DNA of 64,000 nucleotides from Bacillota bacterium (GTDB taxonomy: Bacteria > Bacillota > Dethiobacteria > DTU022). A program made the position numbers and the translations under genes. The DNA is taken from contig JAKPEE010000069.1 in the NCBI GenBank assembly GCA_029552125.1, forward strand, positions 29,641 to 93,640. The letters are read 5' to 3'. Positions 26,749 to 37,774 of the stretch are shown one piece after another (within the stretch, counting starts at the first letter, position 1; each line of letters begins with the position of its first letter). The notes below the pieces were generated by a model, which worked only from the letters and a program-made list of their open reading frames with translations, made no database searches and had not been told where the DNA came from.

Positions 26749-28113
26749 TTAGCCGATTTTCGGCAGCCGGGCTATGGACTGCTCGATTAAATCCTGCGGG
26801 TAGTTGCAATCTTCCATTTTTCCCGAAAGGTAGGATTCATAAGCAGAGAGGTCAAAGTGGCCGTGACCGCTGAGGCAGAATAAAATTGACTTGGCTTCAC
26901 CCGTTTCTTTGCATTCAAGGGCCATATCGATGGCGGCGCGAATGGCATGGGCCGATTCGGGGGCCGGCAGTATGCCCTCGGTACGGGAGAAGGTTATGGC
27001 CGCTTCAAATACGGAAGTCTGGCCGTAAGACCTGGCTTCGATTAAACCGTCATGGTAAACCCGGCTGACCAGGGGAGATTCGCCGTGGTAGCGCAAACCT
27101 CCGGCATGGATACCCGGCGGCACAAAATCATGGCCCAGGGTATACATCTCCATCAGGGGCGTAAACCTGGCCACATCGCCAAAATCATAGGTGAAAGTAC
27201 CCCTGGTTAGAGTGGGGCAGGCGCTGGGCTCCACGGCGATTAAGCGGGTCGCTTTATCTTGTTGTATCTTTTCACGGAGGAAAGGGAAGGCAATCCCGCC
27301 AAAATTGCTGCCGCCGCCGCAGCATCCGATGACCACGTCCGGGTAGTCATCAATCATGGCAAACTGCTTCAGGCATTCCTCGCCGATAATGCTTTGATGC
27401 AGCAGGACATGATTGAGCACACTGCCCAGGGCATAATTGGTGTCGCTGCGCCCGGCGGCATCTTCCACCGCTTCGCTGATGGCGATGCCGAGGCTTCCCG
27501 GCGAGGCGGGGTTTTCTTGCAATACTTTGCGCCCGGTTTCAGTCAACTCGCTGGGGCTGGCTGTGACCTGTGCGCCCCAGGCTTCCATCAGGGAGCGGCG
27601 GTAAGGCTTCTGCTGGTAGCTGACCTTAACCATGTAAACAGAGCATTCCAGGCCGAAGTAGCTGCAGGCCAGGGCCAGGGCGCTGCCCCACTGCCCGGCG
27701 CCGGTCTCAGTGGAGAGCCGCTTGATGCCGGCCTGCTTGTTGTAGTACGCCTGCGGCACGGCCGTATTGGGCTTGTGGCTGCCGGCTGCACTCACACTTT
27801 CATTTTTATAATAGATCTTCGCCGGGGTTCCCAGGGCCTGTTCCAGGCGGTACGCGCGGATTAACGGGGTGGGCCGCCAGAGAGCGTATATCTCCAGGAC
27901 TGCGGGGGGGATATCAATCCACCGCTGCCGTGACATCTCCTGCTCGATCAGGGCCGGAGGAAAGATGGCACTGAGATCTTCCGGGCCGGCAGGCTGCCGC
28001 GTGGTCGGGTTTAACGGCGGGCTTAAAGGTGCAGGCAAGTCGGCCTGGATGTTGTACCATTGCTGCGGCAACTCCTTTTCCGGCAAAAGTATTTTGTACT
28101 GTTTGGCGCTCAT
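26749..28113 (-). CDS. trpB: TrpB2-type tryptophan synthase beta-like PLP enzyme
   Basis: 454 aa, long N-terminal extension; [39 protein letters not shown] (PLP Lys), [28 protein letters not shown]. Confidence 0.92.
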
Positions 28114-28140: not shown

Positions 28141-28425
28141 AAAAAAACTCTCATCCTGGGACGAGAGTTTGCTCGCGGTACCACCCTGGTTGCCTGCATG
28201 AAAAGCAGGCCGCTCTGTTCAGGTGCGGGAAGAATTGCTCTTCCGAGACCTGCTTTCTTTTAACGGTGAAAGTTCCGGCCGGGCCTACTTTTCTGAAGGA
28301 ATTTCAGCCGGCAACTCAAGGATCCATTCGCCTGGCGCGGCGGTACCGGAATCGCAGCTTTGGAATTGTCTTCCTCCATCCGGCTCTCTGAACCGCCCCT
28401 ATCCGGGTTACTAGTTCCTATCATC
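28141..28425 (-). promoter_or_regulatory. T-box leader with intrinsic terminator upstream of trpB2
   Basis: Minus strand carries the T-box core GGGTGGTACCGCG (28174-28186), terminator AAACTCTCGTCCCAGGATGAGAGTTTTTTT (28141-28170), and GCGAATGGATCCTTGAGTTG with candidate UGG specifier at 28324-28326. Confidence 0.93.
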
Positions 28426-28598
28426 GTCTCATATATTTATTTTCTGTCATGCTAACACAGTTGCCGGCCCTTGTCAACAGAAATATTTGGCCGGTTTGTC
28501 CGGCGCGGGCGACCTTTAGCCCGCGCCCCCATTTAAGCGGAAGTTCCTCTCCCGGGGCTGGATTAAAAGTCAGCGGGGACGGCCCCGTTAAGCCAAAT

Positions 28599-29142: not shown

Positions 29143-29619
29143 TTATGACTTGCCGGCGGTAGCAGCACTGCTATCCACCGGCTTTTTAGAATCCAGCCAG
29201 TATGCCATCGCCCGGGTTACTACGACAGCGAGGGCAAGGCGGCTAATTAATAGCATCGGAAAATTTGCGCCCAGCGCAGCAAAAAGAAGATTGTCTTCAA
29301 TAATACTGTGATTCAAGGCCAGGAACGTGCCCAGAAGAACCATATCACGCTTAGAGATGAGTTGCTGTCGCGAAAATTCAATTAGTACTGCGGCACCATA
29401 CACTACTCCGAAAAAAAGCCCGATGACCAGGGGAAAAGCCGCGGCGGGAGATAGGGTCAGCCACCGGGTCAGCCAGTTAAAGTAGCGGGATAGCTTCTCA
29501 ATCAGGCGGTAGTGCCGGGCGTATTCGAACAGGATCATAGTGGGGATTAGAAAGGCCATCAACAGCAGGACCGTGGAACAACTTTTAGTTAAACCTTCTA
29601 TTAGAATTGAAAGGACCAT
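29143..29619 (-). CDS. Nucleoside-recognition (GATE) domain membrane protein
   Basis: TM-rich; FPLVIGLFFGVVYGAAVLIE...LALNHSIIEDNLLFAALG. Confidence 0.7.
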   Translation of the reverse strand: MVLSILIEGLTKSCSTVLLLMAFLIPTMILFEYARHYRLIEKLSRYFNWLTRWLTLSPAAAFPLVIGLFFGVVYGAAVLIEFSRQQLISKRDMVLLGTFLALNHSIIEDNLLFAALGANFPMLLISRLALAVVVTRAMAYWLDSKKPVDSSAATAGKS

Positions 29620-29622
29620 CGG

Positions 29623-30060
29623 CTATCCTCCCAGCCAACCGTAAATCATGTTAATGACAAAGCCGAAAAGCAACGCCGCCGCAATACGTATAAGCGTGGA
29701 TTTTAGCGGAGAGAGGCCGGTATATTTAAGCACCGGGCCTTCCATGGTCAGAGAGTGGCTGGTCAGGATTATTGCCGACAAAACCGTAACTTCACGGGCT
29801 GATAGGGGTAGAACGGCAATAACGCCAAAAGAAGCGTAATTATTAACAAAAAAACCGAGCAGTAAAGCCAGGGCTGTTTCCCCGGGCAGCCCCAAAAAGC
29901 GGACCACGGGGCTAAACCAACGCGCCAGGGGAATCATCAGGCCTAGCTGCTCCAGCGCCACCACTGCCAGGGTTACCGGTATAACAATTTTTGCCAGAAG
30001 AAGGGTTGTTTTCAGGGCTTTAAGGACGCCGTCCCGCGCCAGTTGCAGGTGAAGGTTCAT
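29623..30060 (-). CDS. Nucleoside-recognition (GATE) domain membrane protein
   Basis: LLLAKIVIPVTLAVVALEQLGLMIPLARWFSPVVRFLGLPGETALALLLGFFVNNYA. Confidence 0.75.
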   Translation of the reverse strand: MNLHLQLARDGVLKALKTTLLLAKIVIPVTLAVVALEQLGLMIPLARWFSPVVRFLGLPGETALALLLGFFVNNYASFGVIAVLPLSAREVTVLSAIILTSHSLTMEGPVLKYTGLSPLKSTLIRIAAALLFGFVINMIYGWLGG

Positions 30061-30256
30061 GTTCGTTCTCCTTTGTTTAACCGGCCATTATCTCTAATAT
30101 TACTACGAGCGCCATTTGAGAACAAGAAATTCTCCATTATTTTTCCCGGTAAGAGCAGGAAAATCGGCTGTGCTGTCGAAATATATGAAAGTAAAACCGC
30201 TGGGCAGGGACATTCTGGTTACAGAAAATGTCGTTAAAAATTATATTTTTCGCGAG

Positions 30257-30372
30257 GGAAAGTGTACCTAGGGTTCCGCCGGGTGCAGGCCCGGGACTGG
30301 TTCGAGTGGTACAGGCGCCGGCCGCGGCCGGCGCTACACCGGAGGGATAAAAGCCCAGGCGGGTAGGTTTCC
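30257..30372 (+). ncRNA. PRPP riboswitch (ykkC subtype 2b)
   Basis: GGAAAGTGTACCTAGGGTTCCGCCGGG...GGACTGGTTCGAGTGGTACAGGCGC...GCGCTACACCGGAGGGATAAAAGCCCAGGCGGGTAGGTTTCC contains the ykkC core (CTAGGGTTCCG, ACTGG, GGAGGGATAAAAGCCC) and lies upstream of purE. Confidence 0.9.
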
Positions 30373-30397
30373 TCACAACCTACCCGCCTGGGCTTTT
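30349..30397 (+). terminator. Expression-platform intrinsic terminator of the PRPP riboswitch
   Basis: AAAAGCCCAGGCGGGTAGGTT / AACCTACCCGCCTGGGCTTTT: 21-bp perfect stem, 7-nt loop, ending in TTTT; 5' arm overlaps the aptamer 3' end. Confidence 0.95.
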
Positions 30398-30534
30398 GAA
30401 TTAAGGAGGTGAAGGCGTAAACGACTAAAGATCAGTGAGATAAGGCACCCTGAAGGTAGAACAATTTAACAGAAGGTATTTTTAAGAAAGCATTTGCTTC
30501 TGTTTAATTAAAAAAAGCTAAAGGAGTGAACCCT

Positions 30535-31050
30535 GTGCCTCAGGTAGCTATCGTCATGGGCAGCGATTCGGATCTGCCCATTATGGCTGAAAGCGCCATG
30601 GCGCTGGATCTATTTGATCTTGAATACGAGATGATCGTGGCCAGCGCCCACCGCCACCCGGACAAAGTTGCCCGCTACGCCAGGGGGGCGGCGGAAGCGG
30701 GAATAAAAGTAATTATTGCCGGCGCCGGAGGGGCGGCGCACCTGCCGGGGGTCATCGCCGCCATGACCACGCTGCCGGTAATCGGCGTCCCGGTGGCCAT
30801 ACCGCCGCTGAATGGAGTTGATTCGCTCTACTCCATAGTCCAGATGCCGCGGGGCATCCCGGTAGCCACCGTAGCCATAAACAATGCCTTTAATGCCGGG
30901 TTGCTGGCCGCGCAAATCCTGGCCCTGGGCAATGAAGATTTGCAGGAGAAGTTAAACAGCTATCGCCAGGAGCTGGCGGCCAAAGTGGAAGCACAAGACT
31001 GCCGCCTGCGGAAAATGGGCTGGGAGTACTGCCTGAAAGAGAAGGAGTGA
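30535..31050 (+). CDS. purE: 5-(carboxyamino)imidazole ribonucleotide mutase
   Basis: [46 protein letters not shown] 30535 preferred by RBS spacing (track start 30526). Confidence 0.96.
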
Positions 31051-31055
31051 GTGCT

Positions 31056-32369
31056 ATGATTGACCGTTATGCCCGCCCGGAAATGAAGCGGCTCTGGAGC
31101 CTGGAAAACCGCTTCGCCAAGTTTTTGCAGATCGAAATCCTGGCGGCCCGGGCCTGGGCCGAGCTGGGCGTAATTCCCAGGGAAGCGGCCCGCTTAATCG
31201 AACAAAACTCGCGCTTCTCCGTAGAACGCATCCTGGAGCTGGAGCAGGAAACCCGCCATGATGTGGTGGCCTTTACCCGCTGCGTGGCCGAATCGCTGGG
31301 CGACGAGAGCCGCTATTTTCATTATGGGCTGACCTCCTATGACGTAGTGGATACGGCCCTGTCGGCAATGCTGGTGGAAGCGGCAGCACTCATTAAAGAG
31401 GGGCTGCACCGGCTGGAGGAGGCCCTGAAAGAGCAGGCTCTGCGGCATAAACAAACCGTGATGGCCGGGCGCACCCACGGTGTTCATGCCGAGCCGACCA
31501 GCCTCGGGCTGAAGTTTGCCCTCTGGCTGGCCGAAACCAGGCGCAACCGGGAACGCCTGGAGCGGGCCACAGAAAATATTCGCGTCGGCAAGCTATCCGG
31601 TGCGGTGGGCCACTATGCCCATATTGATCCCTTTGTCGAGGAATATGTTTGCCGCGAACTGGGATTGGCCGTGGCACCGGTATCGACCCAGGTGCTGCAG
31701 CGCGACCGCCATGCCGAATTTGTGACCGTTCTGGCCCTGGTGGGCGCTTCCCTGGAAAAGATTGCTCTGGAGGTGCGCAACCTGCAGCGCACTGAAACCC
31801 GCGAACTGGAGGAGCCGTTTTACCGCGGGCAAAAAGGTTCCTCGGCCATGCCGCATAAACGCAATCCTGTCACCTGTGAACAGATTTGCGGCCTGGCCCG
31901 GGTGTTGCGGGGCTATGCCTCCGCAGCCCTGGAAAACGTAGCCCTGTGGCATGAGCGGGATATTTCACACTCATCGGTAGAACGGATCATTTTGCCGGAC
32001 AGCACTACTCTCGTAGACTACCTGCTCCACCAGGTGGCCCGCGTTATACGCGAACTGCATATTTATCCGGAACAGATGACCCGCAATCTTGGCCTTACCG
32101 GAGGGTTGATTTACTCGCAAAGGGTGCTTCTGGCGCTGGTAGATAAAGGCCTGAGCCGGGAAAAGTCATACGACCTGGTGCAGCGCTGCGCCATGGAGTC
32201 ATGGACCAAAGGGCTTTCTTTTAAAGATCTTCTGTGGCAAGAACCGGCAGTGCGGGAGCAATTTAGTGAAAGGGAGCTTGACGGATTATTTGATCCCGCC
32301 TATTACCTGCGGCGAGTGGATCTGATCTACCGCCGCCTGGGTCTGGGTGAGGAAGCGCAGGCCGAATGA
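31056..32369 (+). CDS. purB: Adenylosuccinate lyase
   Basis: MIDRYARPEMKRLWS, GRTHGVHAEPTSLGLK, GQKGSSAMPHKRNPVTCE signature. Confidence 0.97.
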   Translation: MIDRYARPEMKRLWSLENRFAKFLQIEILAARAWAELGVIPREAARLIEQNSRFSVERILELEQETRHDVVAFTRCVAESLGDESRYFHYGLTSYDVVDTALSAMLVEAAALIKEGLHRLEEALKEQALRHKQTVMAGRTHGVHAEPTSLGLKFALWLAETRRNRERLERATENIRVGKLSGAVGHYAHIDPFVEEYVCRELGLAVAPVSTQVLQRDRHAEFVTVLALVGASLEKIALEVRNLQRTETRELEEPFYRGQKGSSAMPHKRNPVTCEQICGLARVLRGYASAALENVALWHERDISHSSVERIILPDSTTLVDYLLHQVARVIRELHIYPEQMTRNLGLTGGLIYSQRVLLALVDKGLSREKSYDLVQRCAMESWTKGLSFKDLLWQEPAVREQFSERELDGLFDPAYYLRRVDLIYRRLGLGEEAQAE

Positions 32370-32500
32370 ATCATCGTTAATGGGATATCCAGCCGGCGGC
32401 AGTTGGCACACGAAAGCAGCGGCAAGGGGCAAGGCAGGATTAAAGCTGTAGCCAAGCTGTATTGTTTTGCAATCCAGGATTAAAGTAGGAGGGTTAAACG

Positions 32501-33235
32501 GTGAATCGGGGGGAAATTTTATACGAAGGCAAGGCCAAGAAAGTTTTCCGCACCAGCGATCCGGATTTATACCTGATCGAATATAAAGACGATGCCACTG
32601 CTTTTGATGGGCTGAAAAAAGACAGGCTGGAAGGCAAGGGTGTTCTGAACAACGCTCTTTCCGCCATCTTTTTTACTTTACTGGAAGAAAAAGGAGTAGA
32701 AACGCATTTTGTCCGCAAGCTCAGTGAGCGGGAAATGCTGGTCAAAGCCCTGGAGATTATTCCGGTGGAAGTAATCGTGCGTAATATTGCTGCCGGAAGT
32801 CTTTCCAAGCGCCTCGGCATTCCCGAAGGGACCGTTTTGGGCCGGACCGTGCTTGAATTTTACCTGAAAGACGATGCCCTGCACGATCCGATGATTAACC
32901 ATAATCATATTTACGCCCTGGGGCTGGCTTCAGCGGAAGAGGTGGCGCAGCTTGAGGCGGCGGCCCTGGAGGTAAACGCTGTCTTAGCGCCGTATCTGAA
33001 GGAGCGGGGGCTAATCCTGGTGGACTTTAAGCTGGAATTTGGCCGGCACAAGGGGAAAATCCTTCTGGGTGACGAGATTTCTCCAGACACCTGCCGCTTC
33101 TGGGATTCCTCCAGCGGCGAAAAACTGGACAAAGACCGCTTCCGCAGGGATCTGGGCGGGGTCGTGGAGGCCTACCGCGAAGTGTGGCGGCGGGTAAAGG
33201 GGGGCGAAAACGGTGCTCTGGAAAGCCAGGATTGA
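32501..33235 (+). CDS. purC: SAICAR synthetase
   Basis: [55 protein letters not shown]. Confidence 0.97.
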
Positions 33236-33470
33236 GATCACCTTGAAAAAAGAAGTGCTGGATCCCCAGGGCGCCGCCGTCGAGAATGCCTTGAAGGCCC
33301 TGCACTATAACAATGTTAAGCAGGTACGCATCGGAAAATATATGGAGCTCTACCTGGAGGCGGAGGAAAGGGAAGCGGGGGCGAAGCAGGTGGAGGAGAT
33401 GTGCCGCCGCCTTCTGGCCAACCCGGTCATTGAAGATTTTAGCTACACGCTGACGGAGGCGGAGCGATGA
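33213..33470 (+). CDS. purS: FGAM synthase subunit PurS
   Basis: [45 protein letters not shown]; overlaps purC and purQ. Confidence 0.94.
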
Positions 33471-34180
33471 AATTCGGGATTATTGTTTTCCCCGGGTCCA
33501 ATTGCGACCTTGACGCCTATCATCTGGTTAAAGATGTGCTTAAAAAAGAAGCCTCCTATATCTGGTGGGAAGAAACCGACCTTTCCGGTTATGATGCTCT
33601 CATTCTTCCCGGGGGCTTCTCCTACGGGGACTACCTGCGCGCCGGGGCCATCGCCCGCTTTACCCCGGTGATGGGAGCGGTGATCCAATTTGCGCGGCAG
33701 GGCGGGCTGGTCCTGGGCATTTGCAACGGTTTCCAGGTGCTGACGGAGGCGGGGCTGCTGCCGGGAGCCCTCTACCGTAATGCACACCTGCAATTCCGGT
33801 GCGGCTGGACTTATGTACGGGTGGAGAACCACACCCTGCCGTTTACCGGCGCCGCCCGTCCGGACCAGGTGCTGAAAATACCGGTTGCGCACGGCGACGG
33901 GAACTACTATGTGGGCCCGGAGGTGCTGCGCCGCTTGAAAAAGAACCGGCAAATTGTATTGCGTTACGTGGATGCAGCGGGCCGTGAAAGTGCCGCGGCC
34001 AACCCCAACGGTTCCCTGGATCATATTGCCGCAGTATGCAATGAATCCGGCAATGTGCTGGGCATGATGCCCCACCCGGAGCGGGCCGGGGAAGCGCTCC
34101 TCGGTTCGGAAGACGGCCTGGTGATCTTCCGTTCCTTGCTCCAATATTTCGATCAGCGGGGAGGCGGCAGCGGTGACTGA
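33467..34180 (+). CDS. purQ: FGAM synthase subunit PurQ
   Basis: [55 protein letters not shown]. Confidence 0.97.
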
Positions 34181-36383
34181 AACAGGCAGGCATCTCTGGC
34201 GCCGGCTGGGCTTGAACGATGGGGAATATGAGCGCATCTGCGCCGACCTGGGCCGGGAGCCCAACCGGGTCGAATTGAATATGTACAGCGTGATGTGGTC
34301 AGAGCACTGTAGCTACAAGCATTCAAAGTCAACTTTGCGCCTCTTTCCAACCAGCGGCCCGCGGGTGCTTTTAGGTCCCGGGGAAAACGCCGGAGTGGTG
34401 GATATTGGCGGGGGATGGGCCGTTGCTTTTAAGATTGAAAGCCACAACCATCCTTCCGCCATCGAGCCGTACCAAGGCGCGGCCACGGGAGTAGGCGGCA
34501 TTATCCGCGATATCTTTACCCTGGGCGCCCGCCCGGTGGCGCTGTTAAACAGCCTGCGCTTCGGCAGCCTGGAGGACGCCCGGGTCCGCTATCTATTTGA
34601 TAACGTGGTGGCCGGAATCGGCGGCTACGGCAACTGTATCGGCATCCCCACCGTGGCCGGAGAGATCGCCTTTGAGCCCTGTTACCAGGATAACCCCCTG
34701 GTCAACGCCATGTGCGTGGGACTTCTGCCCGTAGAAAAGCTTGTCCTGGGCCAGGCGCCCGGCGCCGGGAACCTGGTGGTCCTGGTGGGAGCCCGCACCG
34801 GCCGCGATGGGATCCATGGCGTTACCTTTGCTTCTGAAGAGCTCTCGGAAGCGTCGGCAGAAAGGCGCCCCGCTGTGCAGGTGGGCGACCCCTTCCTGGA
34901 GAAGCTACTACTGGAAGCCAGCCTGGAAGTTATCGCGGGCGGCCTGGCGGTGGGAGTACAGGACCTGGGCGGGGCCGGGCTAACCTGTGCCGTCACGGAG
35001 ACAGCAGCCCGGTCCGGCAGCGGCATGGAGCTGGAACTGGACAAGGTGCCTTTGCGCGAGGCGGGGATGTCTCCCCTGGAAATTATGGTTTCCGAATCCC
35101 AGGAGCGCATGCTCTTCATTATTGAGCCCGGCCGGTTCAATGACGCGGCAAAGGTTTTCCGGCGCTGGGGGCTGTCTTTTGCAGTGATCGGCCGGGTCAC
35201 CGCCGACGGGTGGATTACGGTCAAACACGGCGGTCGTACCGTGGCCCGGGTACCGGCGGCAAGTGTGGCCGGCGGAGCGCCGCTGTATGAGCCCGACAGC
35301 CGGGAACCGGAGTATTATCGAGAGCGGCAAAGCGTTGATCCCCTGGATTATCCCGCGGTGGAGGATTGTACAGAGGCGCTGTTAGAAGTTTTAGGTTCAC
35401 CGGATGTGGCCTCCAAGCAGTGGGTCTGGCGCCGCTATGATTATATGGTCCGCACCTGTACGGTGCAGGGGCCGGGCGGCGATGCGGCCGTAATCCGCCT
35501 GCGGGAGACGGGGCAGGCGCTGGCGCTGGCCGTGGACGGCAACGGCCGCCACACTTACCTGGATCCGTACCGGGGCGGCATGATGGCCGTGGCGGAAGCC
35601 ACCCGCAACCTGGCCTGCACCGGGGCTGAACCGATTGGGATAACCGATTGCCTCAATTTCGGGAACCCGGAGAAGCCGGAAATATTCTGGCAGTTCCGCC
35701 GGGCCGTGGAAGGCATGTCCGAGGCCTGCCGCGTCCTGGAAGTGCCCGTGGTCGGCGGCAATGTTAGTTTCTACAACGAGGTGGAGGGGGAAGCAATCTA
35801 TCCTACCCCGGTGGTGGGGGCGGTGGGCCTGCTGGAAAACCCGGATCAACAGTGCGACATTGCCTTCAAAAAGGCGGGAGATCTGCTCTACCTGGCGGGA
35901 AGCAGCACAGTATCGCTGGGCGGGAGCCAGTTTATCAAGGTAATCCATCAGGCCGTAGCCGGGTCGCTTCCACCGGTGGACCTGGCCCTGGAAAAGAGGC
36001 TGCAAAAGCTGCTCGTCCAGGCCGTGCGGGCCGGTCTGCTCAGTTCGGCCCATGATCTCTCCGATGGCGGCCTGGCTGTGGCCCTGGCCGAGAGTTGCAT
36101 CGCCGGCGGGCTGGGGGCGCAGGTTACATTGCCCGGGCACCCCCGGCCGGAGCTGCCCCTGTTTGGAGAAGGCCCCTCCAGGGCCATCGTTTCGGTAAAG
36201 GCAGCAGCCAGGGAAAAGCTGCTGGCACTGGCGGCCAAACTTGAGGTGCCGCTGCTGTTCCTGGGAGAAGTGGGAGGGGATAAACTTTCGATCAGCGTTA
36301 CCCACGTGCCGGTGGTAGATGTCACGATCTTTGAACTAAAAAAAATTTACGAGGAGAGCATCCCATGTATCATGGAGCAATAA
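34173..36383 (+). CDS. purL: FGAM synthase subunit PurL
   Basis: [49 protein letters not shown]. Confidence 0.97.
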
Positions 36384-37774
36384 TTGGTCCAAAATTAAAA
36401 GAATCGTGCGGAGTCTGCGGCGGGTTTTCCCGGGGCGATAATCTGCCCTACCTGACCTGTTTTGCGTTATACGCGCTGCAGCACCGCGGCCAGGAAAGCG
36501 CCGGCATTGCCGTAGGCGGCGGCGGAGAAAAGAAAATCTGGTTGAAGCGGGGCATGGGACTGGTTTCCGAAGTTTTCCCCACTACGGATGAGTTAAAAGA
36601 GCGGCGCGGCAACCTGACCGTGGGCCACGTGCGCTACTCTTACGGCGAGGAAGGATGGCACCCGGAGAACGCGCAGCCTCTATTATTAAAATACCGTCAC
36701 GGGGAGCTTGCTATAGCTCATAACGGGCTGTTGTTAAACGGGCCGCAGTTGCGGGAAGAGCTGGAGGAGAAGGGTGCTATCTTTCAAACCGGCAGCGATA
36801 GCGAGCTTCTGGCCCACCTGGTGGCCCGCCAGGGAAGCCCCGATCTGGAAGAGTCGCTCGCTGCGGTCGTTCCCCGGCTGGCGGGCGCTTTTGCCTTTGT
36901 TCTCACTGACGGGAAAAAAGTGATCGGCCTGCGCGACCGCCACGGGTTCCGGCCTCTCTCCCTGGCCGCGCTGGGTAATGAAGGATATTTCCTGGCCTCT
37001 GAAACATGTGCCTTCGACACGATCCGGGCCCGGTTCTTGCGGGATGTAGAGCCTGGCGAAATGGTGGTGCTGGATCAAAACGGATTGCGCAGCCGCAGAA
37101 TCATGCCAGAGGAACAACCCTCCCTCTGCATATTTGAATTCATCTATTTTGCCCGCCCGGATAGCAATATCCACGGTGTCAATGTTCACCTGGCCCGGCG
37201 GGAACTGGGCCGTACCCTGGCCCGGGAGCATCCCGCAGCCGCGGATATGGTTACCGGGGTGCCTGACTCCAGCATCGCCGCAGCATCAGGATATGCCGAA
37301 GAGGCCGGCCTCCCGTACGAGATGGCCCTGGTAAAAAACCGTTATATCGGGCGCACTTTTATTCAGCCGAGCCAGAAGTTGCGGGAAGAAGGGGTCGATC
37401 TGAAGCTGAATGCCGTGCGCAAAATTGTGGAGGGGAAAAGGGTGGTTATCGTGGACGATTCCATCGTGCGCGGCACCACCAGCCTCAAACTGGTGCGCAT
37501 GGTCCGGCGTGCCGGGGCGCGGGAGGTGCACCTGCGGATCAGTTCCCCCCCGGTTATCGCTTCCTGCTTCTACGGTATCGATACGCCCACCCAGGAAGAG
37601 CTCATCGCTCACGGGCGCACTCCTGCCGAGGTGGCGGAAATGGTTGGCGCCGATTCAATCGGCTTTTTAAGCCATGAAGGTATGATCAGCTCGATCGGAC
37701 TGCCCGGTGACCGCGTTTGCCAGGCCTGCTTTACAGCCAGGTACCCTGTATTAAATCCCGCAGCCGGGTCCTGA
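36365..37774 (+). CDS. purF: Amidophosphoribosyltransferase
   Basis: [44 protein letters not shown] motif. Confidence 0.97.

Follow-up and report, generated by a model that had tools for sequence, protein, structure and literature searches.

The window analysed here, a 64,000-nucleotide stretch of DNA, carries seven genes of de novo purine synthesis on its forward strand. Open reading frames and Pfam matches place purE, purB, purC, purS, purQ, purL and purF, in this order, at 30535 to 37774, and the likely ribosome binding site of purE, AAAGGAG, lies at 30520 to 30526 on the same strand. The leader of this operon holds an inverted repeat, a ykkC-type aptamer, a long hairpin that shares a strand with the aptamer, and a Shine-Dalgarno-like site, all on the forward strand. 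On the reverse strand, a T-box leader (28154-28433, 100.8 bits) precedes a tryptophan-synthase-beta-like open reading frame (26749-28113), and a T-box likewise lies near the riboswitch locus in several relatives. Two small divergent genes at 29143-30060, also on the reverse strand, encode nucleoside-recognition Gate domains (PF07670; the second is just below the cut-off), and this pair resembles the spore maturation proteins SpmA/SpmB.

We propose that the leader is very probably a singlet PRPP riboswitch of ykkC subtype 2b that serves the genes of de novo purine synthesis as a transcriptional ON switch. The evidence comes from the aptamer and its diagnostic nucleotides, from the structural overlap with the hairpin, from the conservation of this overlap among relatives, and from the identity of the operon.

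A ykkC aptamer with the diagnostic nucleotides of subtype 2b

The preliminary description of this DNA had placed a ykkC core and a subtype 2b tail upstream of purE, and both are present. The full length of the covariance model RF00442 (ykkC/guanidine-I) aligns to 30257-30363 of the forward strand. The match scores 76.4 bits, where the gathering score is 63 (E = 7.8e-12 for the window, 6.2e-14 in a local search), and the tail GGAGGGATAAAAGCCCAGGCGGGTAGGTTTCC is found in the window. The 2.56-Mb genome holds no second match to this model. RF00442 is named Guanidine-I, yet it spans the entire ykkC fold, guanidine-I and variants together, and it is the only Rfam family that matches here. Therefore, the choice between PRPP and ppGpp was decided by diagnostic nucleotides and gene context rather than by competing models. 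The covariance search that had been suggested as a check thus put the aptamer above threshold, but it did not separate the subtypes. All other Rfam families at the locus scored far below threshold; at 30477-30531 a match resembling SAM-II, with 14.6 bits against a threshold of 44, was dismissed as chance.

Subtype 2 is marked by a pyrimidine where guanidine-I has A46, which is position 49 in the T. mathranii aptamer (PMC6031431). Subtype 2b, the PRPP class, has G96, which is more than 97% conserved, where subtype 2a, the ppGpp class, has A, C, U or nothing, and the conserved 5' and 3' tails of 2b pair into an extra helix, P0 (PMC6031431). In the window, U30307, within GGUUCGAGUGG, is the pyrimidine at the equivalent of position 49. 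G30358, in GCCC-A-G-G-C, is the equivalent of G96, whether numbered from C77 or from A103-G105. The tail UAGG corresponds to U102-A103-G104-G105, with A30365, G30366 and G30367 as A103, G104 and G105. These positions were counted from the residue numbers of the paper rather than by structural alignment, and both ends of the count agree.

U30307, G30358, UAGG and P0 together with the purine operon point to the PRPP subtype, and about 95 related loci agree with this assignment, as it had first been made. A rival reading is a ppGpp riboswitch of subtype 2a through which starvation would turn on the purine genes. The consensus sequences of 2a and 2b are very close, and the single change G96A converts PRPP binding to ppGpp binding (PMC6031431). 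However, the equivalent of G96 is G here, and the genes behind the aptamer are a purine operon rather than the amino-acid genes that accompany 2a. We consider a ppGpp riboswitch very improbable, a judgement made by the published criteria alone because no subtype-2a example was identified among the relatives for a model-to-model comparison. The possibility of a guanidine-I riboswitch (subtype 1) is raised by the name of the matching Rfam family, and it can practically be set aside. The diagnostic nucleotide is U, not A; the conserved 5' and 3' tails are present, whereas guanidine-I aptamers are without them; and the operon serves purine synthesis, not guanidine export or metabolism. Among the relatives, the top-scoring true guanidine-I aptamers instead have A at the diagnostic position (G in two), and for those with A at position 49 the genes behind are in the main transporters of the small multidrug resistance type, in line with expectation for guanidine-I. 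Guanidine-I and ppGpp riboswitches have the ykkC fold and core in common with the window but differ from it in diagnostic nucleotides and gene context.

With P0 and its tails, the PRPP aptamer occupies 30254-30375, as judged from RF00442, the diagnostic nucleotides and a constrained fold. In this fold the 5' strand of P0 (GAGGGAAA, 30254-30261) pairs with 30368-30374, where the 3' strand UUUCCUC has its first two bases in the 5' arm of the terminator and the remainder in the terminator loop. The Rfam alignment and the fold place the P1/P1a/P1b stem-loop, with the ykkC core sequences CCUAGGGUUCCG and GGUUCGAGUGG, at 30263-30313 and the P2 hairpin, of 9 bp, at 30314-30335. P3 and the binding-pocket tail ACACCGGAGGGAUAAAAGCCCAGGCGGGUAGG follow at 30336-30367, a placement in which the sequences of relatives were also used. 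With the 3' arm of the terminator blocked, the predicted fold is the four-way junction known from the crystal structure, with P0, P1, P2 and P3. This junction and the contact residues are common to the window and the T. mathranii PRPP aptamer (6CK5; Knappenberger et al. 2018, PMC6031431), in which P0 is part of the expression platform, as it is here. However, the T. mathranii aptamer comes from a tandem guanine-PRPP system, whereas the window holds a singlet, and its A101 is G in the window, a position at which either purine is allowed.

We searched 60 relatives, as well as the class and the phylum, for RF00442 and added a pattern scan, which together yielded 96 distinct PRPP-type aptamers. 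The inner four pairs of P0 are kept in 95 of these. The outer pairs covary: with their own partners the 96 aptamers averaged 3.22, against 2.38 ± 0.10 with permuted partners.

Overlap of the aptamer with the terminator

A perfect 21-bp terminator that shares the 3' strand of the aptamer and ends in TTTT had also been described, and the repeat is there. Its 5' arm (30349-30369) is complementary to its 3' arm (30377-30397), which ends in UUUU, at 21 of 21 positions (100%) across a loop of 7, and the hairpin has a predicted energy of -41.6 kcal/mol. The 5' arm begins within the P3 loop and spans the 3' strand of P3, the pocket-forming tail and the start of the 3' strand of P0, and it takes in the greater part of the 3' tail. 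Therefore, the aptamer and the terminator are mutually exclusive. For the whole leader the predicted folding energy is -89.9 kcal/mol, whereas dinucleotide shuffles give -63.3 ± 4.2 (z -6.4), and the duplex between the tail and its downstream partner outdoes 100 of 100 shuffles. The same holds for this duplex in the 95 relatives with enough downstream sequence: in 88 of them it outdoes all 100 shuffles, and in every one it outdoes at least 95.

In the proposed mechanism, bound PRPP would hold the 3' tail in P3, the binding pocket and P0. With the tail held, the 21-bp terminator could not form, and transcription would read through into purE-purB-purC-purS-purQ-purL-purF. In the absence of PRPP, the same 3' strand would pair with 30377-30397, and transcription would stop near the UUUU at 30394-30397. 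Blocking the terminator 3' arm costs about 27 kcal/mol of predicted stability (-59.0, against -85.9 for the terminated fold), and PRPP could therefore act only kinetically, during transcription. We infer the ligand and the direction of switching from family membership, and the efficiency of termination is likewise inferred. The ligand-dependent antitermination that had been suggested at the outset agrees both with the published definition of subtype 2b and with about 95 related loci.

The strength of the terminator is uncertain because its U tract is short: just UUUU, itself within the stem, with GAAUUAA coming next. A simple terminator scan, which wants 5 T in 8, called no terminator at the locus. 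These features would suit a PRPP aptamer with a non-classical output, in which the hairpin mainly pauses the polymerase or a factor is needed for termination. Poor U tracts are moreover common among the relatives, and several are even poorer than that of the window, for example GGGCTTAAAC in L031. However, no pair in the stem is mismatched, and every relative examined retains the overlap between the stem and the aptamer tail; we therefore consider a non-classical output unlikely. Control of translation by the hairpin is also unlikely because purE has its ribosome binding site outside the stem, at a distance of about 120 nt.

Classical antitermination by PRPP is a published mechanism. The PRPP riboswitch was described in 2018 by Sherlock et al. 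(PMC5912903), and the singlets before purB in Heliobacterium modesticaldum and purC in Facklamia ignava (PMC5912903) resemble the window in having a single aptamer before purine genes, in being ON switches, in using P3 as an antiterminator and in having a terminator that shares the 3' strand of the aptamer. The window differs from them in its host, in its perfect 21-bp repeat with only four U, and in a family-specific repeat upstream. Among 257 known PRPP riboswitches, 130 (about half) are singlets, and the mechanism of the H. modesticaldum purB singlet works in vitro and in vivo (PMC5912903); the window element is therefore of a known kind and a further example of singlet PRPP riboswitches with this mechanism. 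The finding of a PRPP riboswitch in itself alters nothing in existing knowledge, and with it a known purine-control RNA gains an example in an uncultured Bacillota lineage.

Genes behind the related aptamers

We assigned the genes downstream of the related aptamers from their N-terminal sequences, with Pfam PF00860 used for the permease copy of L032. Nearly always, the gene behind a non-guanidine relative is purE, purB, purK, purC, purL, purD or a purine permease, and glyA and formate-tetrahydrofolate ligase are also found behind PRPP-type aptamers. The exceptions are two nucleoside-transport-like lipoproteins and one peptidase-like gene, the latter behind a divergent aptamer. Most members of the window's own family, f1, have a purine permease behind the aptamer, and in some loci purE comes next. 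In L032, a relative from the same genus, the leader is shared up to ACAATTTAA and is then followed by the permease, whereas the window continues to purE (30397-30535 compared). A search of the window's genome, an 87% complete assembly, found no match to the permease elsewhere, without a positive control for the search. This comparison of sequences suggests that the permease was lost in the window's lineage. Some Tissierellales-like relatives carry two PRPP-type aptamers within a few kilobases (L024, at 5089 and 7327; L016; and L027). One of the pair stands before a permease or purC and the other before purE or purL.

Singlet and tandem forms and the upstream repeat

As the preliminary description had noted, there is no guanine aptamer in tandem. 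The guanine aptamer model RF00167 gave no match up to E = 10 in 30050-30560, no guanine (purine) riboswitch was found anywhere in the window's genome (incomplete, 87%), and the guanine aptamer is absent from the family-f1 loci scanned. This absence is meaningful because the same kind of search finds the guanine aptamer in the sister family f6 and several others (17 of 20 loci, and 6 of 20 in another set). Nor is it unusual, since about half of known PRPP riboswitches are singlets. A recognisable relic of a degenerate guanine aptamer in f1 is unsupported, with no RF00167 match up to E = 1 at 13 loci.

Tandem guanine-PRPP riboswitches are found in family f6, of the same class, before a purine permease, purE or purK. 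The tandem loci are L060, L063-L067, L137, L140-L143, L145, L146, L003 and L059. The tandem form has the same PRPP aptamer as the window, but the window has a plain inverted repeat at the place of the guanine aptamer. One bacterial class thus holds both the tandem (guanine and PRPP) and the singlet form before the same purine genes, and therefore offers a natural system for how a two-input RNA gate becomes one-input.

The repeat in the window, TCGTTAAAAAT-TAT-ATTTTTCGCGA (30231-30255, forward strand), forms 10 of 11 pairs, and its 3' arm overlaps the 5' strand of P0. Across f1 the repeat is mostly TCGTTAAAA-N5/6-TTTTAACGA-GGG, with the 3' arm running into the P0 5' strand; L002, L010, L013, L014, L020, L032, L046 and others also have it. 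At the place of the f1 repeat, f6 has the guanine P1, CUCGUA/UACGAG, whose 3' strand UACGAG doubles as the P0 5' strand (CGAG common). The upstream stem reaches p <= 0.05 against shuffles in 22 of 31 f1 members. The f1 arms pair at a mean of -6.6 kcal/mol with their own partners, against -4.98 ± 0.30 kcal/mol with permuted ones (minimum of 500 permutations, -5.85), a difference that is inflated by relatedness. A candidate sigma-70-type promoter, GTTACA-18-TATATT (30218-30247, forward strand), is weak, with 9 of 12 matching positions, and the region holds 2 such sites against 0.5 expected by chance. The f1 repeat may stand in for the guanine aptamer without binding a ligand, may stabilise the RNA as a 5' hairpin, or may belong to the DNA of an operator or promoter.

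Past the terminator, the window has a Shine-Dalgarno-like sequence, the near-perfect AAGGAGGTGA, at 30403-30412 on the forward strand, 132 nt before purE and with no nearby ATG, GTG or TTG start. The site is conserved in the family: in 22 of 29 f1 leaders the region past the terminator contains an uninterrupted run of 7 or more letters of the Shine-Dalgarno complement. This run is typically GGAGGTGA; it lies some 75-180 nt ahead of the gene, and in most cases no start codon follows it. We rejected a second riboswitch past the terminator, for which there was no Rfam match and alignment across genera kept only the GGAGGTGA block, and a conserved leader peptide behind this block, for which start codons and frames were not conserved in f1. 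Stabilising Shine-Dalgarno sequences (STAB-SD) are known from Bacillus. The site at 30403-30412 is possibly of this type, or possibly a remnant of a leader frame.

A speculative and rather doubtful scenario would link the two elements. In f1, a plain 5' hairpin (30231-30255) would have replaced the guanine aptamer and would compete with P0 constitutively. This competition would set the PRPP threshold and convert a two-input IMPLY gate into a biased one-input switch. The sequence at 30403-30412 would in turn exert its effect on the read-through transcript, for instance through ribosome binding that stabilises the mRNA. Competition between P0 and the guanine P1 in tandem systems is not in itself a new idea, for Knappenberger et al. 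2018 had already put it forward. In f6, a short ATG reading frame often comes after a site similar to that at 30403-30412.
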